Positions 6,560-24,372 of a DNA stretch of 24,372 bases are shown here, in pieces. Both the position numbers and the translations under genes were made by a program. The stretch is from a virus: positions 1-24,372 of the IMG/VR virus record IMGVR_UViG_3300021373_001053; one strand, written 5' to 3'. Each line of letters opens with the position of its first letter. Positions within the stretch are counted from its first letter, which is position 1. The notes below the pieces were generated by a model. It did not search any database. It had not been told where the DNA came from and worked only from the letters and a program-made list of their open reading frames with translations.

Positions 6560-6568
6560 GAGTCCGAC

Positions 6569-7687: not shown

Positions 7688-7688
7688 C

Positions 7689-8960: not shown

Positions 8961-8964
8961 TTTT

Positions 8965-8972
8965 TATAAATA
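8965..8972 (+). promoter_or_regulatory. T4-type late promoter TATAAATA for the secreted-protein cassette
   Basis: Perfect TATAAATA in the short intergenic gap 8961-9001, with about 24 bases of leader before the ATG at 9002. Its place outside coding sequence and ahead of a new gene group makes this the best of the three late promoters. It implies a T4-type late sigma factor (gp55-like) encoded elsewhere in this genome. Confidence 0.75.
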
Positions 8973-9001
8973 ACACTGACTGAATAACAGAGATTAGAAC
9001 T

Positions 9002-10538: not shown

Positions 10539-10539
10539 T

Positions 10540-10764: not shown

Positions 10765-11299
10765 AGACATCGAGTTAGACGTAGGAGGTACAAAGTTTAA
10801 GGGTATCTGGATCGCAGTGATTCTCTCGTTTGCATCTACCCTTGGTGGTGGTATCTGGGCAGCCTCAGAATTCTTTTCACGTCTTGAACTATTAGAAGAT
10901 GATGTACAGACCTCAATTATTCAAGCGCAAGGTATTGAACAACGCCTTCAGTCGTATAATGAAGATATCGACGAGACAATTGATGATTTTGAAACAGAAA
11001 TCAGTGTCATTGAGAAACAAGTCGCTAATGCTGGTATCGATGAACTACAAGGTAAACTCGCCACACTTGGTACGAATCTTCAAACAATTATGGAGCGACA
11101 ACAAGAGTTGCTCGCTATCCAGGAACGTATCATTGCAGTCGAACAAAAAGTCACTGAGATGCAAGTCACGGTGCAGAAGGCAGAAACGTCTTCAGAGAAA
11201 GTAAACGATTTCGATCAAAAGGTAACAAAGATTGAACGTGAGATCGAAGATCTTTGGAATGGGCTAGATTATCTTTCTAATCCATATGGAGGGAACTAA
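10754..11299 (+). CDS. Membrane-anchored coiled-coil protein
   Basis: 181 residues. A short N-terminal part is followed by one transmembrane helix at about 18-40 (IWIAVILSFASTLGGGIWAA) and then a long coiled coil from about 42 to 165. The end, EIEDLWNGLDYLSNPYGG, is a tail I recall from related marine T4-like phage proteins. The rod would reach from the inner membrane into the periplasm or the cytoplasm; the topology is not certain. It lies between secreted and small membrane proteins, in a cassette that seems devoted to the cell envelope. A role in lysis, in blocking superinfection or in the virion is possible. Confidence 0.75.
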   Translation: MSIEDIELDVGGTKFKGIWIAVILSFASTLGGGIWAASEFFSRLELLEDDVQTSIIQAQGIEQRLQSYNEDIDETIDDFETEISVIEKQVANAGIDELQGKLATLGTNLQTIMERQQELLAIQERIIAVEQKVTEMQVTVQKAETSSEKVNDFDQKVTKIEREIEDLWNGLDYLSNPYGGN

Positions 11300-11300
11300 C

Positions 11301-11495
11301 ATGGCAGTAGTACAATGGTTCATAGATTTCGTAAGCATTCTGATTATTGCAGGTCCTTACGTAGTTGCACTCGCAAGTGCGATCAGTGCAATGACACCCA
11401 CCACGGCTGACGATACATTCGTACAGAAGTATATCGTTCGCTTCGTTGATTTACTCGCGCTAAATATCGGTAATGCTAAACCAGAACAGAAGTGA
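11301..11495 (+). CDS. Small single-helix membrane protein, holin-like
   Basis: 64 residues from ATG 11301, preceded by GGAGG at about 11289. Residues 10-30 (FVSILIIAGPYVVALASAIS) form one hydrophobic helix, followed by AMTPTTADD and a C-terminal VRFVDLLALNIGNAKPEQ. This ends like a family of small phage membrane proteins sometimes called holin-like (the pattern ALTPTPKDD, then VDLLALNIGKAK). The gene closes the envelope cassette. A holin role is possible but unproven. Confidence 0.65.
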   Translation: MAVVQWFIDFVSILIIAGPYVVALASAISAMTPTTADDTFVQKYIVRFVDLLALNIGNAKPEQK

Positions 11496-11501
11496 TTTTT
11501 T

Positions 11502-12065
11502 ATGCGTGAAAGTTTATATCATCAATACATGAAAGATGTAGCAGTACCCGGCGATACCAAAGACCAATATGGTATCGCCGCTAATCTTCCAACCGTCAAA
11601 GCCTTTCTAGAAGAAGTTAATCTCAACGACTGTAAAATTGTGGCTGATCTCGGCAGTGGCATTAGTTCAGTGGCTATCGCTCATGCAACCAACGTCGAAA
11701 AAATATATTCTGTTGATAATCATTGGGCTTGGCTAGAAAAAACTAGAAAGTTTGTTGAAGCAAACGTTGACTCTTATGACAACGAAAAACATGAATGGTG
11801 GATGTGGAATGACTGGAGACAGGTAAGTATGAAGTGTGATTTCATATTCTATGATATGTTTTACACAAAAAGTAGAATAAAATTTATGGAAGAAATCACC
11901 CTCAAACTCAAAAAAGGTGGCTTCATTCTATATGATGACTGTCATAAACCTAGGTTACGCAATAAGGTCAAAATGATAGCGAAGAAACATGATCTTACAC
12001 TCGTGAAACGCATACTACCAATAGACGATAGAGGCCGTTGGTCTAATTTATATGTGAAAAATTAA
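11502..12065 (+). CDS. Class I SAM-dependent methyltransferase
   Basis: 187 residues. VADLGSGISS at 47-56 is motif I (SAM binding), VDNH with D72 at the end of the second strand fits motif II, and GGFILYDDCHKP fits the later strand region, as in small-molecule or sugar O-methyltransferases. The substrate cannot be told. It follows the membrane cassette after six bases and precedes a sulfotransferase, so modification of a glycan or small metabolite is a reasonable guess. Confidence 0.8.
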   Translation: MRESLYHQYMKDVAVPGDTKDQYGIAANLPTVKAFLEEVNLNDCKIVADLGSGISSVAIAHATNVEKIYSVDNHWAWLEKTRKFVEANVDSYDNEKHEWWMWNDWRQVSMKCDFIFYDMFYTKSRIKFMEEITLKLKKGGFILYDDCHKPRLRNKVKMIAKKHDLTLVKRILPIDDRGRWSNLYVKN

Positions 12066-12075
12066 TTTTTATATT

Positions 12076-12702
12076 ATGTACATAAACAAGCAAGACTTCT
12101 TTCTTGATCCAGAAACAGGGCTGCCTTGCGGCTCTGGTTCTCGCAAGATCATATCACCTACAGGAAAAATCTGGACATACCTTCACAACTATAGAACTGG
12201 AGGCGTGTCATTTCATCATTGGTGTTATGACAACTTGAAGTTAGCACATTTCTGTACGCGCCAACACGAGAACATCAAAGATACCCGGATCATTTTAGGC
12301 GACCTAGGTCAAGTTTTTTTCACCGTACGTAACCCGTGGGACTGGTGCGTGAGTCGGTGGTCTCATCGCATTATGAGAGATGCTGAAGATCCGCCATTAA
12401 GTTTTGAGCGATGGATAGTTGAGAAATTGGCTAGATGGTCTAGACATCGCGAAATGTCTTATATGTTGCTACAAAGATCAGCAATGGAAATAGAGAAAGG
12501 TGCGATAGCATTACGCTTTGAGAATCTCGAAACAGATTTTGTTCAGATACAAGAAGCCTTGCAATGTCATGTTCCTTTACCACACGTCAATGCATCGCCT
12601 CACGAACATTATACAGACTACTACAGCGCAAAGACAAGGCGCTTTGTTGGTGAGATATTCGAGGATTACAATAAGGTATTCGGTTATAAGTATGGTGAAT
12701 GA
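12076..12702 (+). CDS. Sulfotransferase-like protein (PAPS-dependent family)
   Basis: 208 residues. YRTGGVSFHHW at 39-49 resembles the 5'-phosphosulfate loop (usually PKTGGTS), and FFTVRNPWDWCVSRW at 81-95 is a clear 3'-phosphate binding motif with R85 and S93. The end, HYTDYYSAKTRRFVGEI then KVFGYKY, is typical of carbohydrate sulfotransferases. Such enzymes move sulfate from PAPS to a sugar or other hydroxyl. No signal peptide or membrane helix is present, so it acts in the cytosol or is packaged. With the methyltransferase before it, this suggests glycan modification. The Lys of the 5' loop is Arg here. Confidence 0.8.
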   Translation: MYINKQDFFLDPETGLPCGSGSRKIISPTGKIWTYLHNYRTGGVSFHHWCYDNLKLAHFCTRQHENIKDTRIILGDLGQVFFTVRNPWDWCVSRWSHRIMRDAEDPPLSFERWIVEKLARWSRHREMSYMLLQRSAMEIEKGAIALRFENLETDFVQIQEALQCHVPLPHVNASPHEHYTDYYSAKTRRFVGEIFEDYNKVFGYKYGE

Positions 12703-13070
12703 TGAAACTATTTGAAAAATTAACTGAGAGCAACTTCATGCTGTATGCGGCTCAGAACTATTATAACCCAACTTGTATTGATGTTGAAGAATTCGAAGAA
12801 GATCTAAAACGTTTTAAGTACATAAAGCGTTTAATTACTCGCTACAATGATACGGGCACACTCTCGACCAATCTGATTCTGAATCATCTGGTTATTATTT
12901 TCAATGTATTTGGCATCGAGGCTGGGCTTCGTATGCTCGAATTCAAGATGCAAGAAGATCAGTTCACGTTTATAAAACCGTTTTTAATTCATCTTAGAGC
13001 AATAAAAAACGATAAATATACAGGTATACCGATGGATAAAACTGTGGTAGAGGCTCTGAGGACAATATGA
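12699..13070 (+). CDS. Conserved T4-like phage protein (DUF7207-like)
   Basis: 123 residues, mostly helical. The block LYAAQNYYNPTCIDVEEF, then DLKRFKYIKRLITRY, then NLILNHLVIIFNVFG matches a family spread over T4-like phages that I recall as DUF7207. No function is established. Two adjacent ATG codons (12699 and 12702) could start it; both overlap the previous stop. The stop overlaps the next start (ATGA). Confidence 0.75.
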   Translation: MMKLFEKLTESNFMLYAAQNYYNPTCIDVEEFEEDLKRFKYIKRLITRYNDTGTLSTNLILNHLVIIFNVFGIEAGLRMLEFKMQEDQFTFIKPFLIHLRAIKNDKYTGIPMDKTVVEALRTI

Positions 13071-13654
13071 GTTTAGCAACAAGAGCGGCTGATCTGTACT
13101 ACACATTTCGGTTCGTAAAACTTCTGACAACACCGTGGGTTGAGACCGAAGCGTATAAGTTAGGGCTCATCGACGATAATGGTAAGCGAATCAAAAGCAA
13201 CAAGATTGATTCGGCTGCCGAGAAGACTGCGTACAGCACCTTCAATCGTCTCGTGTTTAATCTGAAGCGATTACTACAGAAAGTGCCTGGCGGCAAGAAC
13301 ACAGTTGCAAGTTATGCGGCTGCCTTATTGTTGTTGCGTGAGAAACATGAAGTAAGCGATGCATCACTCGAAAAAATACTGAAAGAGTGTGGCATTAATC
13401 CTTCTGAATATCTCAACGAAGCCAATCAGTGGTTCTTGCTTGAAAACAAACAGTTAGCACCAGGTGTTTATCGATGTCGTAATGAAAAGTTACTGAATCG
13501 CACGTTAGATGAACACGTCAATCCGAACGATAAGATGAAGGTGTCTGACAATTGCTATCCAGTCGGTGATGTATTTGGCGTTGATGTGTACGAAGTGACA
13601 CACATTGCCACGAATCAACCTGTGTACGTTGCACTAGGAGAACTGTACAAGTGA
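13067..13654 (+). CDS. Conserved phage protein of unknown function
   Basis: 195 residues. RAADLYYTFRFVKLLTTPW at 6-24 and FNRLVFNLKRLLQKVPGGK around 59-77 are strongly conserved in both T4-like and podovirus-type marine phages, as far as I recall. The N-terminal two thirds are helical and the rest looks like a small beta region (VGDVFGVDVYEVTHIA). No enzyme motif or membrane helix. The gene overlaps both neighbours by four bases. The wide spread over phage types suggests a structural or DNA-related role, but I cannot name it. Confidence 0.75.
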   Translation: MSLATRAADLYYTFRFVKLLTTPWVETEAYKLGLIDDNGKRIKSNKIDSAAEKTAYSTFNRLVFNLKRLLQKVPGGKNTVASYAAALLLLREKHEVSDASLEKILKECGINPSEYLNEANQWFLLENKQLAPGVYRCRNEKLLNRTLDEHVNPNDKMKVSDNCYPVGDVFGVDVYEVTHIATNQPVYVALGELYK

Positions 13655-13824
13655 AGACATTCAAACAGATGTACGATGAAGAGGTCATGAGCACCAGTTC
13701 TGGTGTTGCGGGCATAGGACCTGGTGAGATAGCAGACTTCAAGAAAAAGAAAAAAAGGAAAACTCGCGCTTTAACTCGACACTACATAGAAGTGATGGGC
13801 AAAAGAAAGCGACTATATCAGTAA
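13651..13824 (+). CDS. Very small basic protein with capsid-targeting-like start
   Basis: 57 residues with GTG as start, overlapping the previous stop (GTGA). The N-terminus MKTFKQMYDEE resembles the T4 capsid-targeting peptide (M-K-T-Y/F-x-x-F/M). A Gly-rich part, GVAGIGPGEI, and a Lys/Arg-rich run, FKKKKKRKTRA, follow, and the end is basic. I recall a matching family of small phage proteins with the same order of elements. The stop overlaps the next start (TAATG). It is probably an internal virion protein. Confidence 0.75.
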   Translation: MKTFKQMYDEEVMSTSSGVAGIGPGEIADFKKKKKRKTRALTRHYIEVMGKRKRLYQ

Positions 13825-14291
13825 TGTTTCAAGCGAAAATTATATTATTTCTTCTCGTGATCGGTGGTGCAGGCGGCGCGTTTGCATATCACAAAGTTAC
13901 TGTGTCTCAGTTAGAGTCACAAGTCTCAGCCCTCGAAGCAAACAATCAGGTACTCAAAGGCAACAATAATCGTCTCAAAGATGGGCTTCTTGATCAAGAA
14001 GAAGAGATGAAAGAACTTGTGGCTGAACGAGATGCTGAACGCGCTCAAGTCGCGGCTCTCACTACACGCAACAACGAGTTGCAAAAAGACAAAGAACATT
14101 ATCTGCGTATCTTCAAAGATCATAACCTGACTCGACTCGCACGAGCGAAGCCTGGTCTGATTGAAAAACGAATCAACAAAGGTACCGCAGACGTATTCAG
14201 ACAGGTGGAAAATGACACAAAAAATATTATGGCTCTTGATGATAATGATGACACTGACGGGGTGTCAACTGTTTCAGAGACAACCAATTGA
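13824..14291 (+). CDS. Inner-membrane spanin (i-spanin, Rz-like)
   Basis: 155 residues. An N-terminal membrane helix at 4-22 (AKIILFLLVIGGAGGAFAY) is followed by a long periplasmic coiled coil (27-100) and then KPGLIEKRINKGTADVFRQV. I-spanins anchor in the inner membrane and, together with the outer-membrane lipoprotein, fuse the two membranes in the last step of lysis of Gram-negative hosts. The o-spanin gene begins inside its last 80 bases in another frame, the classic Rz/Rz1 layout, which supports the assignment more than sequence likeness alone. Confidence 0.85.
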   Translation: MFQAKIILFLLVIGGAGGAFAYHKVTVSQLESQVSALEANNQVLKGNNNRLKDGLLDQEEEMKELVAERDAERAQVAALTTRNNELQKDKEHYLRIFKDHNLTRLARAKPGLIEKRINKGTADVFRQVENDTKNIMALDDNDDTDGVSTVSETTN

Positions 14292-14625
14292 GGTTGAACC
14301 TGAGATAATCATCAAGACAGAGTACGAACCACTTAGAATCTACCAACCACCGTTGCCTGCTGAGATCGATCTACTCGATGTCAACTGGGTGGTTATCACC
14401 GAAGAGAACTTCGATGAGAAGTTTGCCGAAGTCGAGCGATTGCTCGGGGGCGACTTCGTAATCTTCGCACTCACGCCTGACGGCTATGAGAAGATGGCTG
14501 AGAACCTACAAGAGATTCGACGCTACATAAGGCAACAAACCGAACTGATAATTTATTATCGAAACGCCACGACTGAAAGTGAAGGCACTACAGCGGAAGA
14601 CTGGTTGTCAGAAACGCCAGAATAA
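14212..14625 (+). CDS. Outer-membrane spanin lipoprotein (o-spanin, Rz1-like)
   Basis: 137 residues from ATG 14212, embedded in the i-spanin gene in another frame. I choose this start because it gives a short lipoprotein signal, MTQKILWLLMIMMTLTGC, with lipobox LTGC and acyl-Cys C18. Gln at +2 directs the protein to the outer membrane. An upstream in-frame ATG at 14161 would add 17 residues and spoil the signal. The mature part, longer than classic Rz1, has a Pro-containing stretch (YEPLRIYQPPLPAEIDLLDV) and a C-terminal helical part. It pairs with the i-spanin. Confidence 0.85.
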   Translation: MTQKILWLLMIMMTLTGCQLFQRQPIEVEPEIIIKTEYEPLRIYQPPLPAEIDLLDVNWVVITEENFDEKFAEVERLLGGDFVIFALTPDGYEKMAENLQEIRRYIRQQTELIIYYRNATTESEGTTAEDWLSETPE

Positions 14626-14633
14626 TATATAAT
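14605..14633 (+). promoter_or_regulatory. Sigma70-type promoter for ribonucleotide reductase
   Basis: TTGTCA at 14605-14610 and TATAAT at 14628-14633 with a 17-base spacer: five of six bases in the -35 and a perfect -10. It sits at the end of the o-spanin gene, with about 40 bases of leader before the reductase start. It would be read by unmodified host polymerase early in infection. Confidence 0.75.
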
Positions 14634-14681
14634 ACTTCCCAATTTTAAAACATGAACCTGCAAAAAGGAGGCGGCTTTCTG

Positions 14682-16604
14682 ATGCCCGACACAATTACCC
14701 TACCAACATCCTACCAAGAATTTATTCACCTCTCTCGATACTCACGATGGCTACCTGAGAAAGGTCGACGCGAAACATGGAATGAAACCGTTGCACGATA
14801 TTTCGATTTCTTTGAAGAGCATCTCAAAGCAACGTGTGACTATGATCTGAAACCAGCATTACGTGCTGAACTCGAAGATGCTGTACTACAACAAAAAATT
14901 ATGCCTTCGATGCGTTGTCTCATGACCGCAGGCGAAGCACTCAAGCGTGAGAATATTGCAGGTTATAACTGTTCTTATATTGCTATCGACAAGCCTCATG
15001 CATTTGACGAAGTGCTGTATGTTCTGATGAACGGCACAGGCGTTGGCTTCTCGGTAGAGCGACAGTATGTTTCACAGTTACCACTTGTGGCTGAAGAAAT
15101 GCACCGCACCGACACAACGATTGTCGTAAGCGATTCTAAACTTGGTTGGGCAAAAGCACTGCGTGAACTGATCGGGCTTCTGTATGCAGGGCAAGTACCA
15201 CAATGGGACCTCTCAAAGGTTCGAGAAGCAGGCGCGCCACTCAAGACGTTTGGTGGGCGAGCATCTGGACCTGAGCCGCTCAATCAGTTGTTCATCTTCT
15301 GTGAGCGTACCTTCCGTAATGCTCGCGGTCGTAAGTTGACCTCTGTTGAGTGTCACGATATTGTCTGTAAGATTGCTGAGATTGTGGTTGTTGGTGGTGT
15401 ACGCCGCTCTGCACTGATCTCATTGTCGAATCTATCAGATGACCGTATGCGTCATGCAAAGGCAGGGCAATGGTGGAATGACAACCCTCAACGTGCACTC
15501 GCAAACAACTCTGCGTGTTACACTGAGAAGCCAGATATTGGCATCTTCATGGATGAGTGGAAAGCACTGTACGACTCTAAGTCTGGTGAGCGTGGCATCT
15601 TCAACCGTGAATCAGCGAACAAAATGGCGACAGCAAGTGGTCGACGTGAGATCGACGGCTTTGAGTTCGGCACGAACCCATGTTCTGAGATCATTCTCCG
15701 CAGCCGACAGTTCTGTAACCTTTCAGAGGTTGTTGTTCGACCTGGCGATACGTGGGAAGATCTTGCTGAGAAGACGCGACTCGCTACTATTCTTGGTACG
15801 TTCCAGTCTTCACTCGTAAACTTCAAGTACGTATCAAGCGGCTGGAAGAAGAACTGCGAAGAAGAACGATTACTTGGTGTGTCAATGACTGGTATCATGG
15901 ACAACAAACTCACGAATGGCAAGACAAAGGGCATCGAAGAGAATCTTGAGAAACTCAAGGCTCTGGCTGTAGAGACAAATGCCAAGTTTGCGAAGTCTAT
16001 GGGTATCAATCAGTCAACAGCGATCACCTGTGTGAAGCCGTCTGGTACCGTGTCTCAGTTAGTAGACGCCGCATCTGGTATTCACGCACGTCACAACCCG
16101 TACTACATTCGCACAGTGCGTGGCGACAAGAAAGACCCACTGACTGAGATGATGGTCGATGCTGGCTTCCCAGTCGAAGACGATCAGATGAATCCAGGGC
16201 ACACATCTGTGTTCTCTTTCCCAATGAAAGTTGACAAGAACGCTGTGTTCCGTACCGATCTGACCGCTATCGAACAGTTAGAGATGTGGTTGATCTATCA
16301 AAAGCACTGGTGTGAACACAAGCCTTCTGTGACAATCTCAGTCAAAGAAGATGAGTGGATGGAAGTAGGCGCTTGGGTGTACAAGAACTTTGACTATATG
16401 TCTGGTGTATCGTTCTTACCATTCTCTGATCACACCTACGCACAAGCGCCGTATCAAGACACCGACAAGGCTGGCTATGATGAGTTCCTTGGTCAGATGC
16501 CAAAGAATGTTGACTGGTCTCTACTCTCACAATATGAATCTCGCGATATGACCGTGGGCGCTCAAGAACTTGCTTGTAGTGCCGGCGCCTGCGAGATTGT
16601 GTAA
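14682..16604 (+). CDS. nrdJ: Class II (adenosylcobalamin-dependent) ribonucleoside-triphosphate reductase
   Basis: 640 residues. I prefer ATG 14682 because AAAGGAGG at 14664-14671 sits ten bases before it; ATG 14652 has no such site. Class II reductases make deoxynucleotides with a coenzyme B12 radical and need no oxygen or second subunit. The visible active site is complete: C97 in YNCSYIAID, the block TNPCSEIILRSRQFCNLSE with N332, C334, E336 and C345, and a C-terminal Cys pair CSAGAC (C632, C637) that re-reduces the active site. Length and motifs match the monomeric type of Lactobacillus. It lies behind a sigma70-type promoter. The host must supply or salvage cobalamin. Confidence 0.93.
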   Translation: MPDTITLPTSYQEFIHLSRYSRWLPEKGRRETWNETVARYFDFFEEHLKATCDYDLKPALRAELEDAVLQQKIMPSMRCLMTAGEALKRENIAGYNCSYIAIDKPHAFDEVLYVLMNGTGVGFSVERQYVSQLPLVAEEMHRTDTTIVVSDSKLGWAKALRELIGLLYAGQVPQWDLSKVREAGAPLKTFGGRASGPEPLNQLFIFCERTFRNARGRKLTSVECHDIVCKIAEIVVVGGVRRSALISLSNLSDDRMRHAKAGQWWNDNPQRALANNSACYTEKPDIGIFMDEWKALYDSKSGERGIFNRESANKMATASGRREIDGFEFGTNPCSEIILRSRQFCNLSEVVVRPGDTWEDLAEKTRLATILGTFQSSLVNFKYVSSGWKKNCEEERLLGVSMTGIMDNKLTNGKTKGIEENLEKLKALAVETNAKFAKSMGINQSTAITCVKPSGTVSQLVDAASGIHARHNPYYIRTVRGDKKDPLTEMMVDAGFPVEDDQMNPGHTSVFSFPMKVDKNAVFRTDLTAIEQLEMWLIYQKHWCEHKPSVTISVKEDEWMEVGAWVYKNFDYMSGVSFLPFSDHTYAQAPYQDTDKAGYDEFLGQMPKNVDWSLLSQYESRDMTVGAQELACSAGACEIV

Positions 16605-16744
16605 TGGATGAGTATAACTATACTCTCGATTGTCCCTCATGCGAGGTCGAAGTGCACACAAAGGTCTATGGTGAAGACGAACTGCCTTGCTATTGCCCAA
16701 TGTGTGGCGAAGATGTCAACGAGGAATGGACCATAGCCGACTGA
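16604..16744 (+). CDS. Small zinc-ribbon protein
   Basis: 46 residues, overlapping the reductase stop (TAATG). Two Cys pairs, CPSC at 10-13 and CYCPMCGED at 29-37, form a zinc ribbon; the rest is acidic. I recall similar small proteins with CPMCGED in marine T4-like phages. Tight coupling to the reductase suggests expression together but does not prove a shared role. There is no CxxC redox context of the glutaredoxin type. Confidence 0.75.
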   Translation: MDEYNYTLDCPSCEVEVHTKVYGEDELPCYCPMCGEDVNEEWTIAD

Positions 16745-16755
16745 TATATAATGCC

Positions 16756-17169
16756 ATGACTTGGTATTATAACGATCAGCCTTATGAACCCGACGAGGAA
16801 GAACTCTCTTCCTTGGTCGGGTTTGTTTATTGTATCGAAGAAAAAACCACTGGCAAGAAGTATATCGGCAAGAAGTTTTTCTGGCGCAGTAAGATCCTAC
16901 CCATTACGAAAACGCGCAAGAGGCGCAAGAGGACGCTAGTGGAGAGCGACTGGCGCACCTACTATGGAAGTAGTGAAGCCTTGAAAGAGCAGGTGGCTGA
17001 ATTCGGCGGAGACATATATACCAGAACAATATTAAAATTATGTCGCAGTAAGGGTGAATGTTCGTACTACGAAGCAAAGGAACAGTTCGAGCGAGACGTT
17101 CTACTTCGAGACGATTATTACAACGAATTTATTGGTTGCAAGATACATTCAAAACATGTTAAAATTTAG
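16756..17169 (+). CDS. GIY-YIG-like putative endonuclease of T4-like phages
   Basis: 137 residues. I choose ATG 16756 because the longer frame from 16687 runs through the zinc-ribbon gene. GFVYCIEEKTTGKKYIGKK at 22-40 matches the GIY-YIG nuclease core (the GFVY and KYIG strands), followed by a basic run (RKRRKRT) and SDWRTYYGSSEALK. The later ECSYYEAKEQFERDVLL carries an acidic residue that could bind metal. The family is widespread in T4-like phages as a stand-alone protein and often annotated as a putative endonuclease; activity is not shown. TATAAT at 16747-16752 lies just upstream but has no good -35. Confidence 0.75.
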   Translation: MTWYYNDQPYEPDEEELSSLVGFVYCIEEKTTGKKYIGKKFFWRSKILPITKTRKRRKRTLVESDWRTYYGSSEALKEQVAEFGGDIYTRTILKLCRSKGECSYYEAKEQFERDVLLRDDYYNEFIGCKIHSKHVKI

Positions 17170-17836
17170 TCAATTTCTGAACGAAGGGATCAACGATCCC
17201 GCCATCTTCAAAGCAGTCTTTCTCGCCGGTGGGCCTGGATCAGGCAAATCATTCATGGTCGGGCAAACAGCCTTGACCGCTCTTGGTATGCGTGTCGTTA
17301 ACTCAGACGATGCATTCGAAGCCGCCATGAAGAAAGCAGGCATGGAGATGGATCCAAAGAATATCTTCTCAGTACAAGGGCAAGAGTTGCGAGGCAAAGC
17401 AAAGGCTCTCACCGGCCGCAAGCAAGCCATGTATCTCAAAGGTCGCCTTGGCCTTGTGATTGACGGCACTGGTAAAGACTACGAGAAGATCAAAAAGCAG
17501 TCAGTTGAATTACGTCGATTGGGTTATGACACAGCCATGCTGTTTGTCAATACCGATCTTGAGACCGCGATGCAGAGAAACCGAGATCGCGCTCGATCAC
17601 TACCTGATGACGAAGTTAAAAAGTATTGGGACCAAGTGCAGAACAACATTGGTAAATTCCAAGGGCACTTCGGTCGCAACTTCATGGTTGTTGATAACAG
17701 CCAGGGAGCAGACTGGAAAGCAGGCACAAAGAAAGGTTATGTCTGGGCGAGTAAGTTTGCCAAGCGTCCACCTAGCGCACCTGTTGCGAAGAAGTGGATT
17801 AATAAAGAGAAAGAAGCACGAGGGATAAGCAAATGA
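17156..17836 (+). CDS. P-loop kinase of the zeta-toxin/polynucleotide-kinase type with capsid-targeting-like start
   Basis: 226 residues from ATG 17156, which overlaps the previous gene by 14 bases. After the N-terminus MLKFSQFLNE, again like a T4 capsid-targeting peptide ending in L-x-E (8-10), comes the Walker A motif FLAGGPGSGKS at 22-32. VVNSDDAFE at 47-55 and LVIDGTGKD at 104-112 are strands typical of zeta-toxin and polynucleotide-kinase-like enzymes, and RNRDRARSLP forms an Arg-rich lid. It should phosphorylate a nucleotide, sugar or nucleic acid end; the substrate cannot be told. The C-terminal part is basic. No antitoxin gene lies next to it. Confidence 0.8.
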   Translation: MLKFSQFLNEGINDPAIFKAVFLAGGPGSGKSFMVGQTALTALGMRVVNSDDAFEAAMKKAGMEMDPKNIFSVQGQELRGKAKALTGRKQAMYLKGRLGLVIDGTGKDYEKIKKQSVELRRLGYDTAMLFVNTDLETAMQRNRDRARSLPDDEVKKYWDQVQNNIGKFQGHFGRNFMVVDNSQGADWKAGTKKGYVWASKFAKRPPSAPVAKKWINKEKEARGISK

Positions 17837-17979
17837 GCGGAGAAAGCGTAATCATTTTACTTGTCGCGGGCCTTGTCTTCGGTTACTTTTGGGTAAACCG
17901 TCGCAAAGGACTAGAGACAAAGAAGGGCGGTGGTATCAATCGTCCAGATGGCAGTGACACACCAGATAATCTGAAGTAG
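17833..17979 (+). CDS. Small membrane protein
   Basis: 48 residues, overlapping the previous stop (ATGA). Residues 5-21 (SVIILLVAGLVFGYFWV) form one membrane helix. The rest is Gly-, Lys- and Asp-rich and polar. I recognise no family. The gene ends just before a sigma70-type promoter. It is too short to say more than that it is a single-pass membrane peptide. Confidence 0.6.
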   Translation: MSGESVIILLVAGLVFGYFWVNRRKGLETKKGGGINRPDGSDTPDNLK

Positions 17980-17981
17980 AG

Positions 17982-18010
17982 TTGCCAAGATCAATTGTGA
18001 TCTGTATAAT
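17982..18010 (+). promoter_or_regulatory. Sigma70-type promoter before the DUF6433-like gene
   Basis: TTGCCA at 17982-17987 and TATAAT at 18005-18010 with a 17-base spacer, in a true gap between genes. The ribosome binding site AGGAG at about 18026-18030 and the ATG at 18039 follow. It begins a short unit that ends at the terminator at 18692. Confidence 0.8.
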
Positions 18011-18038
18011 GAAACACCGTTGACCAGGAGAATGAAGT

Positions 18039-18479
18039 ATGGCGTATACAGTACGGAAACAAGATGTTTGGGAAGTTTTTGCTGACTTTGAAAAGGCAAA
18101 AAACCGAAAACAAAGAATTGAGATTCTGAAAAAGAATGAAAACAATATGCCTTTAAGAGATGTACTGCAAGGTGCATTCGATGAAAGAATCCAGTGGAAT
18201 CTTCCACCTGGTACGCCACCTTACACACCTCAACAAACAGACGCGCCCACACCTAGCACGTTACTCAAAGAACACCTCAAGTTTAAGTATTTCGTCAAAG
18301 GCGTTCGCGAAAGCGAAGATCTATTGCCTGTTAGGCGTGAGCGTTTATTTATCGATATTCTCGAAGTCATCGATGCAAGAGATGCAGAAGCAGTTGTAGC
18401 GATGATTAACAAAAAGCCACCCGTGAAGGGATTAACAGAAAAGATAGTAAAGGAGGCCCTACCAGATTTGATCCCATGA
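18039..18479 (+). CDS. Conserved T4-like phage protein (DUF6433-like)
   Basis: 146 residues. PLRDVLQGAFDERIQWNLP around 38-56, PPYTPQQTD, and the C-terminal IDARDAEAVVAMIN then KGLTEKIVKEALPDLIP match a family found across T4-like marine phages, which I recall as DUF6433. No function is known. It has its own sigma70-type promoter and a good ribosome binding site, pointing to early or middle expression. Confidence 0.75.
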   Translation: MAYTVRKQDVWEVFADFEKAKNRKQRIEILKKNENNMPLRDVLQGAFDERIQWNLPPGTPPYTPQQTDAPTPSTLLKEHLKFKYFVKGVRESEDLLPVRRERLFIDILEVIDARDAEAVVAMINKKPPVKGLTEKIVKEALPDLIP

Positions 18480-18519
18480 CTTGGTTATGATTCCCATAAA
18501 CTAGAACAAGGAGTTGCCT

Positions 18520-18681
18520 ATGGTAGCAAACCAAATAGAACGATTAAAAAAAGATTCTAGAGACCTCGGTCATTATATTCACAAGTTGAATAAAAAGGGA
18601 AGAAAAGATGCCGCTTTTCGAATGCAAAAGAAACAAGCGTTCTTAAATGCCGCCATCGAACAAGTATCTACAAGGGGGTGA
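18520..18681 (+). CDS. Very small basic protein
   Basis: 53 residues, start ATG 18520 after an AAGGAG at 18508-18513. Lys/Arg-rich and helical (IERLKKDSRDLGHYIHKLNK), with no Cys and no membrane helix. It lies between the DUF6433-like gene and the terminator, within the same short unit. The clear ribosome binding site and place argue that it is real. Possibly a small host-directed or nucleic-acid-binding protein; no family recognised. Confidence 0.65.
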   Translation: MVANQIERLKKDSRDLGHYIHKLNKKGRKDAAFRMQKKQAFLNAAIEQVSTRG

Positions 18682-18690
18682 TCCAATCTG

Positions 18691-18719
18691 GAGGGCGGCT
18701 TCGGTCGCCCTATCTTTTT
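18691..18719 (+). terminator. Rho-independent terminator with UUCG tetraloop
   Basis: AGGGCGGC at 18692-18699 pairs with GTCGCCCT at 18704-18711 (one G-U pair) around a C(TTCG)G loop, and ATCTTTTT follows. This is a textbook intrinsic terminator, placed 10 bases after a stop codon and just before the next start. Confidence 0.9.
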
Positions 18720-18723
18720 GCCT

Positions 18724-19350
18724 ATGAATAAAGAATTTCACGCATTGCCTTATGAAGAACGTAGAGCCATCTTAGATAAGGTCTACTTATTTCTTCACAC
18801 ACCTAGAAAAGAAGGCGGACCTGGTCAGTTTCAAGGGCACGCTTGGAATGATCTCGCAAGAATCGCAGAGGTCACAAAAGCAGGGCACTATCATTCATTA
18901 CTAGACTACGGTTGCGGTGAACCTATAATGTATAAAACATTAGGGCATCGAGGCCGCAACGGATTTTTTAACTCACGTAACAATCTCAGACTGAAACGAA
19001 ACTTCAAAGTCACAACTTACGATCCGTTTTCGCACGATCCGGATGTTCGAGTAAAACCTGATAGAACATTTGATCTGGTGGTTTGCAATGATGTTCTTGA
19101 GCACCTACTTGAAGAAGAGGTCGACTCAACACTCGATGAGATTTTTGGTTATGCTCGTAAAGCAGTTTGGGTAAACATATCAACAAAAGCCGCTTCGAAA
19201 GCACTAGAGACTGAAGATGGTATCATATATAAAGGGCAGTCTGTACATACGTGCATCAAACCAGAAAGATGGTGGATAAAGAAATTAGAAAGGGCTGAAC
19301 GTAGAACTGGCCGGGCGTTAACGCTACATATACATTTCGAGAAGGGTTAA
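18724..19350 (+). CDS. SAM-dependent methyltransferase-like protein
   Basis: 208 residues from ATG 18724; a TTG at 18718 in frame lies in the terminator T run and is unlikely. LLDYGCGE at 59-66 is motif I, TTYDPF with D100 is the second strand, and DLVVCNDVLEHL at 117-128 is the typical class I methyltransferase strand 4. The N- and C-terminal parts are phage-specific. Because a terminator stands right before it, transcription must come from read-through or from a start I cannot see. Confidence 0.75.
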   Translation: MNKEFHALPYEERRAILDKVYLFLHTPRKEGGPGQFQGHAWNDLARIAEVTKAGHYHSLLDYGCGEPIMYKTLGHRGRNGFFNSRNNLRLKRNFKVTTYDPFSHDPDVRVKPDRTFDLVVCNDVLEHLLEEEVDSTLDEIFGYARKAVWVNISTKAASKALETEDGIIYKGQSVHTCIKPERWWIKKLERAERRTGRALTLHIHFEKG

Positions 19351-19352
19351 TC

Positions 19353-19631
19353 ATGCCAACATATGATTTAAAAAACACCAAGACTGGTGAAGTAATTGAA
19401 AAACTCTGTTCAATTTCAGAGAAAGAAGCAATGGTAGAGTCTGGTGAATGGGAGCAAATACATCTCGGTATGGCAGCCGACATCACTCACACTGGCAACG
19501 TGATTAATAAGACCAGTGGTGATTGGAAAGACCTTCTCAAAAAGATCAAGAAAGAAGCCGGTGGTAATAGCGGGCTCAGTACAGAGAAGAAAAGAAAGTT
19601 AGGCTGGAAAGACAACACGATCAAGACATGA
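19353..19631 (+). CDS. Small conserved phage protein (FmdB-like N-terminus without Cys)
   Basis: 92 residues. The start MPTYDLKNTKTGEVIEKLCS resembles the opening of FmdB-type putative regulatory proteins, but the zinc-binding Cys pairs are missing. The later NKTSGDWKDLLKKIKKEAGG is a helix-forming, Lys-rich part shared with similar T4-like phage proteins. It overlaps phoH by four bases. Function unknown. Confidence 0.7.
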   Translation: MPTYDLKNTKTGEVIEKLCSISEKEAMVESGEWEQIHLGMAADITHTGNVINKTSGDWKDLLKKIKKEAGGNSGLSTEKKRKLGWKDNTIKT

Positions 19632-20329
19632 AAACTCGACAGCAACAAGCCGAGTCGATGAACATACGCATCGATGATCTCTACACAATTGATCCTATCA
19701 CAAAGCATCAGAGAGAAGCATGGGACGCCTTCAAGAATGATGGCGACCATCTTGTATTGGCTGGCACCGCAGGCACCGGCAAAACCTTTCTTGCAATGTA
19801 CATGGCACTTGAACTGGTCATGGATAAGTCAACGCCATATGACTCACTTGTAATCGTGCGAAGCGTGGTGCCTACACGAGAAGTCGGTTATCTACCGGGT
19901 ACTCTGCAAGACAAACTCGATGCATTCACGGGTCCATATCGAGCCGCGTGTCACGAACTGTTCAATGACACTCGTGCCTATGACAAACTGGTACACAACA
20001 ACTTCATACGATTCGAATCAACGTCATATATACGTGGTGTGACGTTTGACAATGCGATCATATTGGTCGACGAAATGCAGAATCTAAACTTTCATGAACT
20101 TGATTCGGTGATCACCCGCGTAGGGCAGGCTACACGAATCATCTTCTGTGGTGACTATCACCAGTCAGATTTCAAGAACAACAACGAGAAAGAAGGCATC
20201 AAACAGTTTCTTTCGATACTTGAAAACATGAAAAATTTTAGTATAATAAACTTTAGTTGGGAAGATATAGTACGATCTGATTTCGTGCGAGACTATATCA
20301 TGACAAAAGAATGGATGGGAATACAATGA
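19628..20329 (+). CDS. phoH: PhoH-like ATPase
   Basis: 233 residues. Walker A is GTAGTGKT at 46-53, Walker B is ILVDEMQN at 145-152, and RIIFCGDYHQSD around 170-181 is the following sensor-like strand; all are typical of PhoH proteins, which belong to the superfamily-1-like helicase/ATPase group. PhoH is common in marine phages and is used as a marker gene; its true role is unsettled, with phosphate stress and RNA metabolism proposed. It overlaps genes on both sides by four bases. Confidence 0.93.
   Translation: MKTRQQQAESMNIRIDDLYTIDPITKHQREAWDAFKNDGDHLVLAGTAGTGKTFLAMYMALELVMDKSTPYDSLVIVRSVVPTREVGYLPGTLQDKLDAFTGPYRAACHELFNDTRAYDKLVHNNFIRFESTSYIRGVTFDNAIILVDEMQNLNFHELDSVITRVGQATRIIFCGDYHQSDFKNNNEKEGIKQFLSILENMKNFSIINFSWEDIVRSDFVRDYIMTKEWMGIQ
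20220..20247 (+). promoter_or_regulatory. Possible sigma70-type promoter inside phoH
   Basis: TTGAAA at 20220-20225 and TATAAT at 20242-20247 with a 16-base spacer, about 80 bases before the gene at 20326 that leads to the lysozyme. It lies in coding sequence, in a locally A/T-rich patch, so chance is possible. Confidence 0.4.
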
Positions 20330-20520
20330 CACAACGTATCACTGAAGCGATGAAACTTTACCTTGAAGGGCGTCGAGCCTATCACGTAGCAAACTGGGAG
20401 ACCTTCACAAAGAATCCTGTCGGTGTAGCCGAGCATGGTGACTTCATGGAAACTCTCGAAAAGGAACTAGAGCAGATCGCACGTTACGATGAACTGCTCT
20501 CAACACTGGAGACACTCTAA
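20326..20520 (+). CDS. Small hypothetical phage protein
   Basis: 64 residues from ATG 20326, overlapping the phoH stop. Mostly helical and acidic: YLEGRRAYHVANWETFTKNP, then GVAEHGDFMETLEKELEQIA. I recall a similar NPVGVxEH pattern in marine T4-like phages but no function. The stop overlaps the next start (TAATG). Confidence 0.65.
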   Translation: MTQRITEAMKLYLEGRRAYHVANWETFTKNPVGVAEHGDFMETLEKELEQIARYDELLSTLETL

Positions 20521-20762
20521 TGTCAGACATCTTTGATTTCGGTTTTACCGCGGTCACTGAAGATGAACTCGAAGTTGTACAGTCCTCAAAAGAGGCATCT
20601 ACCAACGTCGAAGAAAGACTAGATAATTTGTTTAATGCAATCATGCCGCTTCTTAACAATCTTAAGGCAAATCCAGAGAAAGAATATATTCTCTGGCCGA
20701 ACAGACTCGCAAAGGTCGAGCAGTTCGAAGACAAACTTCAAGCAATCTACCGAGGAGAATAA
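20520..20762 (+). CDS. Small conserved phage protein
   Basis: 80 residues. The start MSDIFDFGFTAVTEDEL and the block PLLNNLKANPEKEYILWPNR, then KVEQFEDKLQAIY, are strongly conserved in T4-like phages as I recall. Helical, acidic, no membrane helix. It lies directly before the lysozyme gene and carries its ribosome binding site (GAGGAG at about 20752). Function unknown. Confidence 0.75.
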   Translation: MSDIFDFGFTAVTEDELEVVQSSKEASTNVEERLDNLFNAIMPLLNNLKANPEKEYILWPNRLAKVEQFEDKLQAIYRGE

Positions 20763-20763
20763 A

Positions 20764-21210
20764 ATGGACAGAGAAGCCGTATTCGAAACACTCAAGATTG
20801 ATGAAGGCGTAGAGTACAAGATCTATGCTGATCATCTTGGCTATCACACATTTGGTGTAGGTCATTTGATCACAAACGCCGATCCTGAATGGGGTCAACC
20901 GTTTGATACGCCTGTTGATTCAGAGCGAGTCTGGGAAGCCTTCAACAAAGATCTCGATGTTTCTATCAGCGAATGCATTGTTCTCTATGGTGAAGACACC
21001 TGGGAAGGATTGCCTGATGAAGTACAGCAAATCGTGTGTAACATGATGTTTAATATGGGCAGACCACGTCTGTCTCAATTCAAGAAATTTAATGCCGCTA
21101 TCAAAGCAGGTGACTGGGCAACTGCGGCTGTAGAAGGGCGTGACTCACGTTGGCACAAGCAAGTGACCAATCGTGCAGAACGTCTGATGGTAAGACTAGA
21201 GAATGTCTAA
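20764..21210 (+). CDS. T4-type lysozyme (endolysin)
   Basis: 148 residues from ATG 20764, behind GAGGAG. The start matches phage T4 lysozyme: LKIDEGVEYKIYADHLGYHT at 10-29, with E14, D23 and T29 in place of catalytic E11, D20 and T26, then FGVGHLIT. The end SRWHKQVTNRAERLM fits the T4 pattern SRWYNQTPNRAKR. It cuts the glycan strands of peptidoglycan. It has no signal peptide, so a holin must release it. The T4 protein has 164 residues; this one is slightly shorter. The gene overlaps the lipoprotein gene after it by eight bases. Confidence 0.93.
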   Translation: MDREAVFETLKIDEGVEYKIYADHLGYHTFGVGHLITNADPEWGQPFDTPVDSERVWEAFNKDLDVSISECIVLYGEDTWEGLPDEVQQIVCNMMFNMGRPRLSQFKKFNAAIKAGDWATAAVEGRDSRWHKQVTNRAERLMVRLENV

Positions 21211-21595
21211 AAGCAATTTACTTGATCTGTTAATTATGTGGGGGTGTGCCGCTTCTGCCATCGTGCTAGCCGGCATACTTCTTACCGCCTGTGATCCTCA
21301 AGGCAGTACACTGAAAGAAACACACAACGCCGAAGGTGTAGACTTTACGATGAAGGTGCATGTGTTTCCTAATGATATGGAGTTGAATCGCGCTGTCAAA
21401 AGACTTGAAGGTGCACCAGCATATGAAGTTGAAGGCATCGCTCAAGCCAGAGTTGACGCAATCGGCAATATTAGGCGCTGTGACATATATGTTGTGAAAC
21501 CAAATTCTTCAAGAGATTACTCTCAGCAAGAAACCTGGGGGCACGAACTGATGCATTGCATCTATGGATTATATCATGCAGAAGGGCAAAGATGA
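21203..21595 (+). CDS. Lipoprotein with HExxH metallopeptidase-like motif
   Basis: 130 residues. A membrane helix and lipobox at 15-30 (CAASAIVLAGILLTAC) put the acyl-Cys at C30; Asp at +2 would keep it in the inner membrane by the E. coli rule. The mature part ends in TWGHELMHCIYGLYH, with HELMH at 114-118 and a further His at 125, as in zinc metallopeptidases. The spacing differs by one residue from the metzincin motif. It overlaps the lysozyme gene, so a part in lysis or in altering the host envelope is possible. Peptidase activity is inferred from the motif alone. Confidence 0.75.
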   Translation: MSKSNLLDLLIMWGCAASAIVLAGILLTACDPQGSTLKETHNAEGVDFTMKVHVFPNDMELNRAVKRLEGAPAYEVEGIAQARVDAIGNIRRCDIYVVKPNSSRDYSQQETWGHELMHCIYGLYHAEGQR

Positions 21596-22233
21596 TTATA
21601 CCTAAGACAATCACGAACTCATACGAAGTAGCAGGGTTCAACAACAAACGACACTTAAAATCATTGGGTGAATTTGCAAAGCAGATACCCGAACGCTCTC
21701 GTGTTCTAGAAATTGGTGTAGGCTGGGGCGGCTCTACTTGGGAGTTGATGGACAGTCTACCCGAAAACTGTGAGTTACATTCGTGCGATACGTTTGGCAT
21801 GAATAGCCCACAACTCAAGATGAAGCACGTACAAGGCGTGCTTGAAAAGCATTCGCACAATAGTGCAATCGTCTATCAAATGCAAGTCTATCAAGAACAG
21901 ACACACCGAGCCGCATTTGATTGGGCGGTAAAGCAACACCCACGTTATCGAAAGTTGATGAAACGAGTACATGAATGTAAATCGCTCGACGTACTAAACG
22001 ATGACTTAAACTGGGATATGGTATACATTGACGGTCATCATGCTTATGAAACTGTGATCAAAGAACTCACGCTGGTGACCCATGTAGCGTATGTCTGTGG
22101 TGATGACTATCACCCAGCACATCCTGGCTGCCAGCAAGCCATTGAAGAATGGATTGGTAACACTGGTCGTCAGTTTTCATTTGACCCGTATGACACTGGG
22201 TCTGGTTTCTGGTATTCTATTAAGGAATTCTAA
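21592..22233 (+). CDS. Class I SAM-dependent methyltransferase (Methyltransf_24-like)
   Basis: 213 residues from ATG 21592, overlapping the previous stop (ATGA). VLEIGVGWGGST at 38-49 is the SAM-binding motif I, HSCDTF with D66 the second strand, and MVYIDGHHAYETVIKEL the typical later strand of sugar or small-molecule O-methyltransferases. DDYHPAHPGCQQAIEEW follows the same family. It opens a run of glycosyltransferase genes, so a sugar substrate is likely but not shown. Confidence 0.82.
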   Translation: MIIPKTITNSYEVAGFNNKRHLKSLGEFAKQIPERSRVLEIGVGWGGSTWELMDSLPENCELHSCDTFGMNSPQLKMKHVQGVLEKHSHNSAIVYQMQVYQEQTHRAAFDWAVKQHPRYRKLMKRVHECKSLDVLNDDLNWDMVYIDGHHAYETVIKELTLVTHVAYVCGDDYHPAHPGCQQAIEEWIGNTGRQFSFDPYDTGSGFWYSIKEF

Positions 22234-22373
22234 TGGCGAAGTACGGTCGATTTGACCCTAAAAATAAAAAGAAGCGTAATGATAAGTATCGAGGCGAGCG
22301 AAGAACCGTCAAAAGTTCTGATTACAAAAGAGAGCGAGTGCAGGTAAATCAAATTGCAAACAGAACTGCTTGA
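22233..22373 (+). CDS. Very small basic phage protein
   Basis: 46 residues, overlapping the previous stop (TAATG). It starts MAKYGRFDPKNKKKRNDKYR, a pattern I recall from T4-like phage proteins that open MA(K/R)YGR(F/Y)DP(K/R)NKK. Rich in Lys, Arg and Asn, without hydrophobic core. Possibly nucleic-acid binding. It overlaps the start of the split glycosyltransferase by 20 bases. Confidence 0.65.
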   Translation: MAKYGRFDPKNKKKRNDKYRGERRTVKSSDYKRERVQVNQIANRTA

Positions 22374-23204
22374 TCCGAAAGGTCGCAAGTGGATTCTGAC
22401 TGGCGACACAATACATTTTGCGGGTAAGACTGGCATCGGTGACGTGATGCTCGGTCTTAACACTGCATACTATGTGTCGAATACATTAAAAAAAAAGTAA
22501 ATCTCACGTATCACTGGCTCAATGATCGAGACTGGAAGTTTCACTTTGAAGACCAACAGACGATCATAGAACAACAAGAGTACTTGCATACTCGAATGCA
22601 TGGCTATCAACGGGTTGATGTAAACGTTGAAAACATCTTCAACACAAATCATGACCTGTTGAATAATCAGTTACACATAAACATCGACAAGCCCGAAGGG
22701 TATGCGGTGCTTGACAGTATCAACACGTGGTTGTTTCACCCGAAGTTTCTGGATCTGCCAGTGCATGACAATCTTGTCGTTATTTGGCGAACTAAGTTTA
22801 TCGACTCAAAGTATCCTTCATTTAAAGACAGTTACGACTCATCGTATTGGGATCTGATCATACCCATATTAAAGATGAAAGGCTACAATGTTGTTGAAGT
22901 ATCACACCGAACACCAATCGCAGAGGTGTTTTATCTGATCTCGCGGTGTAAGTTCATTGTTGCATACAATGGGATGTATCACTACATTGCAAAAAATCTA
23001 GTGAAGCCAATGATCGTGTTAGGTGATTCGAGCATCATACGCACACACAACCCACAAGCAACTCACTTTTACTGCCCGAAGAAAGATAAGACGCCACGAG
23101 ACGTTCTAGACTACTTGCTAAATATCGAAAAGAATTATCCGAAGATGCTCAAGAAGACAGAACGGATAAAACGTGAAGTGAAACAAATAGTTTACGGTGA
23201 CTAA
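22354..23204 (+). CDS. GT9-like (heptosyltransferase-type) glycosyltransferase split by a -1 frameshift
   Basis: Read in two frames. From TTG 22354 (an AGG lies nine bases before it) comes a 48-residue part with FAGKTGIGDVMLGLN at 22-36, the N-terminal GIGDVxL motif of GT9-type enzymes, ending TLKKK and TAA at 22498. The -1 frame continues without a start from 22497 to 23204 for 235 residues and holds the family's C-terminal part: SRCKFIVAYNGMYHYIAKN then KPMIVLGD. The two parts make one normal protein of 283 residues if the ribosome slips back one base on the A AAA AAG at 22491-22497. The alternatives are a sequencing error in the nine-A run or a true mutation; a re-start at ATG 22584 would lack the N-terminal motif. 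The enzyme should transfer a sugar, probably to a surface glycan. Confidence 0.75.
22488..22500 (+). other. Candidate -1 ribosomal frameshift site (A AAA AAG UAA)
   Basis: A run of nine A followed by GTAA. In the upstream frame the codons are TTA AAA AAA AAG TAA, so the heptamer A AAA AAG is in phase and directly followed by a stop, as at efficient bacterial -1 sites. I see no strong downstream hairpin and no Shine-Dalgarno-like stimulator upstream. Confidence 0.55.
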
Positions 23205-23798
23205 ATGATAACGCCTGCTGTAGGCATGATCTTTCTGAAAGACAATAAGATCAGCGAGACCTATAAAAACATTGTAAAACATTCTTGGATGAATGCTGGC
23301 TATAAAGTCTGGTACCATGATGCTATCACACCAGACACAATGCATCTTGGTGTTAAAGAACTTAAGTTTGGCAACAAGGCACAAGGACGTAATAAGGGCA
23401 ATCCTTTATCACCAACTGAACAAGCAATCTGGTACAGTCACATGATGATGTGGGAGATCGCTTCACGAAAAACAAACCCGCTCATTGTCATTGAACACGA
23501 TGTGATGTTGCTTAAGCCAATCGAACAGTCGGTTCTCGCGCAACATCCTATTCTCGGTCTGTCACATTGTGGTCTGTTATCAAAACATCCTCACAAAGGG
23601 TACCGCATTTCGGCTGGTGGCGCATATATGTTAACGCCTGAGATTGCCAAGAAAATGATCGACGGTGTGCCTGAGTTGATCACATATAATAGTGACGGAT
23701 ACATTCATAACTGGATCGCTAGATATGGCACGTTTAGACAAGAATACTCAACACAACTTTACTTACCTGAGGTGGGTGTAACAATAGATCATGGTTAA
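23205..23798 (+). CDS. GT25-like glycosyltransferase
   Basis: 197 residues, starting right after the previous stop. SPTEQAIWYSHMMMWEI at 69-85 and PLIVIEHDVMLLKP at 92-105 match the GT25 (LPS beta-galactosyltransferase-type) pattern in which an E-x-D motif holds metal and sugar nucleotide (here E97, H98, D99). GGAYMLTPEIAKKMID is a further typical stretch. The C-terminal part with GYIHNWIARYG fits the family too. It probably adds a sugar to a glycan with its neighbours. It overlaps the next gene by eight bases. Confidence 0.8.
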   Translation: MITPAVGMIFLKDNKISETYKNIVKHSWMNAGYKVWYHDAITPDTMHLGVKELKFGNKAQGRNKGNPLSPTEQAIWYSHMMMWEIASRKTNPLIVIEHDVMLLKPIEQSVLAQHPILGLSHCGLLSKHPHKGYRISAGGAYMLTPEIAKKMIDGVPELITYNSDGYIHNWIARYGTFRQEYSTQLYLPEVGVTIDHG

Positions 23799-24372
23799 CG
23801 TCTATATTGGTTATGATGCACGTGAGCAAGACGCCTACAACGTGGCCATGGCATCAGTCAAAGAACATTCGAATGTGCACGTCAAAGGGCTGATTCGCGA
23901 ACAGTTAAAGGCTTATGGCTACTACTATCGTGAAGATCGACTCGCATCGACTGAGTTCACAATCACACGTTTTCTTGTGCCTTGGCTCGAAGACTACAAA
24001 GGGTTTTCGATCTTTATGGATTGTGACGTACTGGTCAACACCGACATCTCGAAGATTATGGATGAGATCGATGAAGAGAATGATGTGAGTTGCGTTCAGC
24101 ATCACTATTATCCTAAGACATCAACAAAGATGGACGGGCAAAGCAATCATCTATACCCTCGCAAGAACTGGTCATCTGTGATGGTGTTTAACAACGAACG
24201 ATGCAAGACTCTCACAAACGAGTACGTGAACCAAGCACAGCCCAGCGATTTGCATCAAATGAAATGGGCAAACAAGATCGGCTCGTTGCATCACACCTGG
24301 AACTATCTGTCGGGTTACTATCATGATCTTGACAAACCAAATATTATTCACTATACTGATGGTGGACCTTGG
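23791..24372 (+). CDS. GT-A-fold glycosyltransferase (3' end outside window)
   Basis: 194 codons are visible and the frame is still open at the window end. VYIGYDAREQDAYNVAM at 4-20 and FSIFMDCDVLVNTDIS at 72-87 are typical of GT8-like enzymes; the DxD motif (D77, D79) binds the metal and sugar nucleotide. SSVMVFNN and SLHHTWNYL follow the order of the fold. It is the third glycosyltransferase in a row, so the cluster may go on past the window. Confidence 0.82.
   Translation, partial: MVNVYIGYDAREQDAYNVAMASVKEHSNVHVKGLIREQLKAYGYYYREDRLASTEFTITRFLVPWLEDYKGFSIFMDCDVLVNTDISKIMDEIDEENDVSCVQHHYYPKTSTKMDGQSNHLYPRKNWSSVMVFNNERCKTLTNEYVNQAQPSDLHQMKWANKIGSLHHTWNYLSGYYHDLDKPNIIHYTDGGPW

Follow-up and report, generated by a model that had tools for sequence, protein, structure and literature searches.

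Stand-alone copies of the DNA-binding domain (DBD) of ligases have been described in cyanophages and other jumbo phages by Iyer et al. 2021 (PMC7824862), where the section on this domain places them in subgroup 2.1 and names AAX44695.1 as an example. This accession is PSSM2_317 of phage P-SSM2, which belongs to T4-GC 313, as does the DUF6433 protein of P-HM1. As regards the ligases themselves, the pertinent section of a review (PMC2984593) describes T4-like cyanophages as lacking T4 gene 30 and mostly also lacking rnh. No function is assigned to DUF6433 in Pfam, and no paper naming DUF6433 or PF20025 was found in the literature searched.

In this work, we analysed a stretch of viral DNA of 24,372 nt (positions 1 to 24,372 of IMG/VR record IMGVR_UViG_3300021373_001053; hereafter the window), in which a DUF6433 gene is followed by a gene for a 53-residue protein, labelled p53 here. 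The elements of this unit and the cassette that follows it lie on the plus strand. We propose that DUF6433 and p53 form a core module for DNA replication or repair in uncultured marine T4-superfamily phages, a statement toward which, taken whole with the roles suggested below, we lean slightly. DUF6433 would thereby be given a named, testable role in its genomic setting.

DUF6433 and the DNA-binding domain of T4-type ligases

The DUF6433 gene (PF20025, phrog_461; 18039..18479) encodes 146 amino acids and is preceded by an AGGAG ribosome-binding site that was read from the sequence (18026..18030). Its Pfam match scores 81.5 bits, against a gathering cut-off of 38.9, and covers positions 4-112 of the 115 in the profile. 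The relationship of this family to ligases emerges from the comparison of family alignments by hhalign: 24 DUF6433 proteins matched the N-termini of nine T4-like ligases with a probability of 97.7 and an E-value of 1.6e-12 over 129 columns, and restriction to the 26 closest DUF6433 sequences gave an E-value of 5.8e-11. The DUF6433 profile itself matches four of the nine T4-like ligases fetched. The comparison of single sequences, DUF6433 against T4 ligase, is weak (E-value 0.0019, probability 14.6, 47 columns), and the match turned strong only when the ligase family alignment was used. Searching the sequences of solved structures with the DUF6433 profile gave no credible match (best E-value 0.53).

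For the structural comparison, an AF2 model was built from 26 sequences of the window and IMG/VR (pLDDT 79.8). The best PDB matches found by Foldseek are T4 ligase (6dt1) and its isolated DBD (5wfy), with E-values of 2e-3 to 6e-3 and TMq of 0.64-0.65. VIA-align superposes the model on 5wfy over 130 of 132 residues with a Z-score of 13.9, and the scores for 5wfy and the ligase entry 6rar (Pmar-Lig) lie between 13.9 and 14.1; DNA ligases, with Z of at least 6.5, make up 48 of the 50 VIA-align matches listed, and the next match has a Z-score of 2.9. Since the fold match agrees with a profile match that makes no use of structure, we conclude that DUF6433 is a stand-alone DBD of the ATP-dependent (T4-type) ligase kind, without the catalytic parts, and predict that it binds DNA. 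A ligase enzyme, with its nucleotidyltransferase and OB domains, does not fit into this protein, all of whose Pfam-recognised content is DUF6433. The domain can also be tied to the published example, for the DUF6433 profile matches the P-SSM2 gene at 2.8e-33. Two DUF6433 genes in other records are annotated as "DNA ligase" (MK867354.2, 143530-144006; MT028491.1, 74218-74652), although DUF6433 is the DNA-binding part only.

Promoter, 3' hairpin and extent of the unit

An earlier note on this DNA had proposed a self-contained early unit, made up of a TTGCCA-17-TATAAT promoter, a DUF6433-like gene, a gene for a 53-residue basic protein and a UUCG terminator, and all four elements are indeed present. 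The promoter-like site (17982..18010), found by a hexamer scan with 11 of 12 matching positions, consists of TTGCCA (17982-17987) and TATAAT (18005-18010) separated by 17 nt, and its end lies 28 nt from the DUF6433 start. At the other end of the unit, a GGGCGGC-UUCG-type stem-loop (18692..18711) is followed by a U-tract of five T residues (18715..18719), which makes the hairpin terminator-like; in the window, therefore, the G+C-rich hairpin and U-tract of an intrinsic terminator are both found. The hairpin has a folding z-score of -2.2, and 6 of 200 shuffled sequences fold equally well.

Judged alone, the promoter and hairpin of the window exceed chance mildly. In the region scanned for such signals (5000-24372), the promoter-like sites number 45, where 34.2 are expected, and the terminator-like sites 30, where 15.5 are expected; in no other gene group there does a strong promoter-like site between genes go together with such a hairpin. 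A second promoter-like site (TTGTCA-17-TATAAT, 14605-14633) ends 18 nt before the start of nrdJ. Because sites of both types are frequent by chance in this DNA, we checked both in relatives, using a non-redundant set of 48 loci that includes L007, a contig nearly identical to the window; 46 of these, L007 among them, have enough upstream DNA. In 31 of the 46 loci, the 110 nt in front of DUF6433 contain a promoter-like site that matches at 11/12 positions or better, where shuffled letters lead one to expect 0.16; the perfect site (TTGACA/TATAAT, 12/12) is present in 23 and an 11/12 site in eight more; at a cut-off of 10/12 the count is 36 of 46 against 1.6 expected. A G+C-rich hairpin lies 3' of p53 in 46 of the 48 loci. 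The stem sequence varies among relatives, and each of the six consensus pairs shows compensatory changes, on both sides, in a structural alignment that used 38 of 45 listed tails (the listing omitted L014, L106 and L107).

This conservation among relatives is why we take both signals of the window to be real. The site at 17982..18010, with two hexamers at a spacing of 16-18 nt and kept in relatives, is of the sigma70 type; it is probably a host-type promoter that unmodified host RNA polymerase could read, and from its sequence we would place its timing as early or early-to-middle. The view of the two genes as a unit is thus borne out: the genes, the promoter and the 3' hairpin go together across a large phage group, and so are not a chance arrangement.

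That the unit is closed, as the earlier note also held, applies to the window with its hairpin and T5 tract, but not to most relatives. A U-tract (at least five T in eight) follows the hairpin in 14 of the 48 distinct loci, while 34 have none. Among the 45 loci with a usable downstream reg gene, which include neither L007 nor the window, the next core gene, reg (followed by phoH), starts 38-73 nt after the p53 stop in 30, and in the other 15 the two genes are separated by 624-1327 nt of other sequence. Given the few U-tracts and the direct succession of reg, closure is not general: its own promoter opens the unit in most relatives, and a good terminator closes it in some only.

From the same downstream arrangement, the pair might also be regarded as just one segment of a longer operon, in which reg and phoH would be co-transcribed with it, and the promoter-like site and hairpin would matter little. 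The short distance to reg in the 30 relatives and the 34 loci without a hairpin plus U-tract speak for this explanation, but under it one would not expect a promoter conserved so far above chance or a hairpin retained through compensatory changes; we consider it rather unlikely, though with a substantial residual chance.

Several further observations concern the region downstream of p53. The stop codon lies in a conserved context, TGATCC-(1-4 nt)-TCT (18679..18690), that was recognised in the alignment of relatives and occurs once in the window, just before the hairpin. An outer stem, in which TGATCC pairs with a downstream GGA(T), is visible in many tails; the window lacks it, and only the inner stem is retained in the consensus fold. 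The idea of read-through of the p53 stop codon, suggested by this context and the hairpin, was dropped, as in relatives the following stops come soon after and at various places. An Rfam search of the window gave no RNA family, and no repeats were found around the unit. The gap between p53 and reg is an insertion spot for methyltransferase and other cassettes; in the window it holds a methyltransferase-like cassette (18724..19350, from Pfam and PHROGs matches), which lies outside the unit, between it and the next core genes.

The 53-residue protein and its pairing with DUF6433

The p53 gene (18520..18681) starts with ATG, behind an AAGGAG ribosome-binding site (18508..18513) whose GGAG...GCCT-ATG leader is kept in many relatives, and encodes a basic protein (pI 10.5) of an unnamed conserved family. 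The IMG/VR search with the p53 of the window yielded 119 confirmed loci and the search with a divergent p53 at least 180, of which 80 were kept in each case, the two sets overlapping in some contigs. DUF6433 lies directly upstream of p53 in every one of the loci kept, 80 from the first search and 80 from the second, at a distance of 21-178 nt in the latter. Among three genome-bin contigs with p53, DUF6433 is visible in two, and in the third p53 stands at the contig edge; the tally of 161 out of 161 counts some contigs more than once. The pairing does not hold in the other direction: the p53 profile matched none of 12 isolate regions with DUF6433, so DUF6433 does not generally need p53.

This widespread and strongly conserved family of small proteins is unmatched, or matched by chance only, among 50,697 phage records searched with p53 and its divergent forms. 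For the p53 of the window, Pfam gave a sub-threshold Snf7 match only and PHROGs one weak match of unknown function, and there was no match in NCBIfam or, at E-values up to 1, in PADLOC. None of the papers and family libraries searched describes the family or its strict pairing with DUF6433, the text search being one that cannot use sequence. Over 48 distinct loci, the median pN is 0.149 for p53, 0.187 for PhoH and 0.266 for DUF6433, with pS near saturation for all three; the low pN of p53 at saturated pS shows it to be a real and strongly constrained protein.

In ten distant p53 genes, which were chosen for this pattern, a Shine-Dalgarno-like site is followed by an in-frame Ile codon (ATA, ATC or ATT) 17-21 codons before the conserved core, in all ten (L106:4950, L107:2955, L196:2146, L199:2456, L200:2456, L203:2447, L206:963, L207:1378, L211:2456 and L220:2456); most of these genes also carry a later ATG with its own site. 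Non-AUG initiation of such genes is possible, and the pN of 0.54 against a pS of 0.63 in the extension lends little support to its being coding.

The model of p53 is a confident two-helix hairpin (pLDDT 89.7), and conservation is strongest along helix 1. When solved structures were searched by sequence with the p53 profile, no match was credible (best E-value 0.014, to 21 residues of a designed TPR protein), and Foldseek returned generic hairpins only. Among these is Rop of ColE1 (1rop), on which the model superposes with TMq 0.91, TMt 0.86 and an rmsd of 0.9 over 52 columns, and p53 might accordingly be a Rop-like RNA-binding regulator, a helical-hairpin dimer that would set the level of the unit, perhaps by acting on its own mRNA, at the conserved 3' hairpin or the leader. 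This explanation would account for the high pI and the conservation along helix 1, as well as for the structured 3' end and leader that the p53 message retains. However, the Foldseek E-value for Rop is only 2.8, unrelated hairpins (CHMP3, 14-3-3) score equally well or better, and the Rop family is not matched by p53 in Pfam at E-values up to 1. We regard an RNA regulator as a serious rival, and one that is unlikely to be correct.

The two genes of the pair differ in their history. The comparison was made among 51 loci that are non-redundant on phoH and were filtered on phoH alone; in the 74 resulting pairs with similar phoH (pS below 0.5), which are not independent of each other, DUF6433 has diverged (pS above 0.5) in 48 and reg in 44, as against 5 for p53; the figure for the upstream kinase is 1 of 32. 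Local allele exchange at the DUF6433 and reg genes is seen at L007-L174. These divergence patterns indicate that DUF6433 alleles are swapped between otherwise similar phages over a constant p53. This exchange counts against a close one-to-one match between the two proteins, and would suit a DNA-binding component adapting to different hosts.

The gap between the two genes contains a terminator-like hairpin in some distant relatives. Among 44 distinct gaps, 11 (all of distant relatives) are at least 126 nt long; 10 of the 11 contain TATAAATA (L194, L199, L203, L206, L207, L208, L211, L213, L217 and L220), and in most of them a short stretch and then a terminator-like hairpin follow. TATAAATA resembles a T4-type late promoter, and the gap that bears it is possibly a small late RNA gene.

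A possible role in replication or repair

In isolates, DUF6433 often has a nuclease gene for its neighbour: twelve isolate regions were read, and in seven of them (DLP6, Melnitz-3, S-CAM1, phiM12, Cr30, OC and HTVC008M) a gene for a T4-type RNase H or flap nuclease directly precedes it. In C48C1, Mosig, P-HM1 and P-SSM2 no such label adjoins DUF6433, and the twelfth record is unannotated. The upstream neighbour in the group of the window is usually a kinase-like gene. Family searches of four or five long p53-bearing contigs, which may be incomplete, found the ATP-ligase catalytic family (PF01068) in none of five, the NAD-ligase family in none of four, no match to the RNA-ligase family in those searched, and T4-type RNase H (phiM12 query) in none of four (131, 146, 155 and 94 kb), as against four of five isolates matched. 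According to its record and the relevant part of PMC5349666, DLP6 encodes both DUF6433 and its own gp30 ligase; DUF6433 is therefore not a simple substitute for a missing ligase.

On the reading that we prefer, DUF6433 would grip duplex DNA at nicks and would recruit or cooperate with the ligase of the host; cooperation with the host enzyme is suggested because these phages are without a recognisable T4-type ligase and T4-type RNase H. The p53 protein might be an accessory whose binding partner is nucleic acid or some conserved component of the replication or repair machinery, and the pair would be transcribed from its own host-type sigma70 promoter up to the conserved 3' hairpin. Any joint action of DUF6433 with p53 is something that we infer, and the function of p53 is something that we only infer. 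A more elaborate form of the proposal, which we hold to be doubtful, is a split, catalysis-free module for handling nicks, in which DUF6433 marks the nicks and the nearly invariant p53 is an adaptor that recruits host ligase and polymerase I, the two together replacing T4 RNase H and ligase; DUF6433 would be swapped, perhaps to match hosts, and p53 kept constant. If p53 were such an adaptor to host repair enzymes, this would explain how T4-like phages that encode neither ligase nor RNase H complete the lagging strand, and p53 might serve as a small tool for recruiting bacterial ligase.

The earlier note had suggested that the two proteins perhaps act against the host, and a unit for early host takeover or a toxin unit can be argued for from its own host-type promoter and its small basic protein. 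Early T4 genes often have a host-type promoter of their own and a small basic product. The suggestion nonetheless finds no support: DUF6433 is of the ligase-type DBD kind and in isolates often stands beside T4-type RNase H, and p53 is strongly conserved under purifying selection and fixed in position like a core gene, unlike typical takeover genes. Nor does p53 match any toxin, defence or takeover family in Pfam, PHROGs, NCBIfam or, at E-values up to 1, PADLOC. We thus consider a takeover or toxin unit improbable; the pair looks like a part of the phage's own DNA copying or repair, which is the likelier nature for it than an anti-host weapon.

The gene order in T4 is rnh-dsbA-33-59-32. That DUF6433 is a positional stand-in for dsbA, the late-transcription DNA-binding factor encoded beside rnh, is very improbable, for although it directly follows rnh in many isolates, its profile and fold match ligase DBDs, and DLP6 is reported in the part of PMC5349666 concerned to have a separate DsbA (AAY80_035) besides DUF6433.

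As to the host, the NrdJ of the window has its closest counterparts in phages of alphaproteobacteria (HMO-2011, roseophages and rhizobial phages), and no photosystem gene was found in any of four long relatives; these are weak hints only. The window also carries an alternative oxidase gene (PF01786, E-value 7.4e-64) at 350-916, in a T4-like phage whose relatives give no sign of a photosynthetic host.

In comparison with known systems, p53 shares with ColE1 Rop a two-helix hairpin, as modelled, and a similar length, but it has no sequence-family match to Rop and the hairpin fold is generic. DUF6433 is homologous in fold and profile to the N-terminal DBD of T4 DNA ligase gp30 (5wfy, 6dt1) across the whole domain; unlike gp30, the protein of 146 residues has neither the nucleotidyltransferase nor the OB domain. 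It is the same domain as the stand-alone ligase-type domain of Iyer et al. 2021 (PMC7824862), and differs in its setting from that given in their section on it: here it is found in an uncultured marine group, with no adjoining RNase H, with p53 as the next gene, and with a conserved promoter and 3' hairpin.
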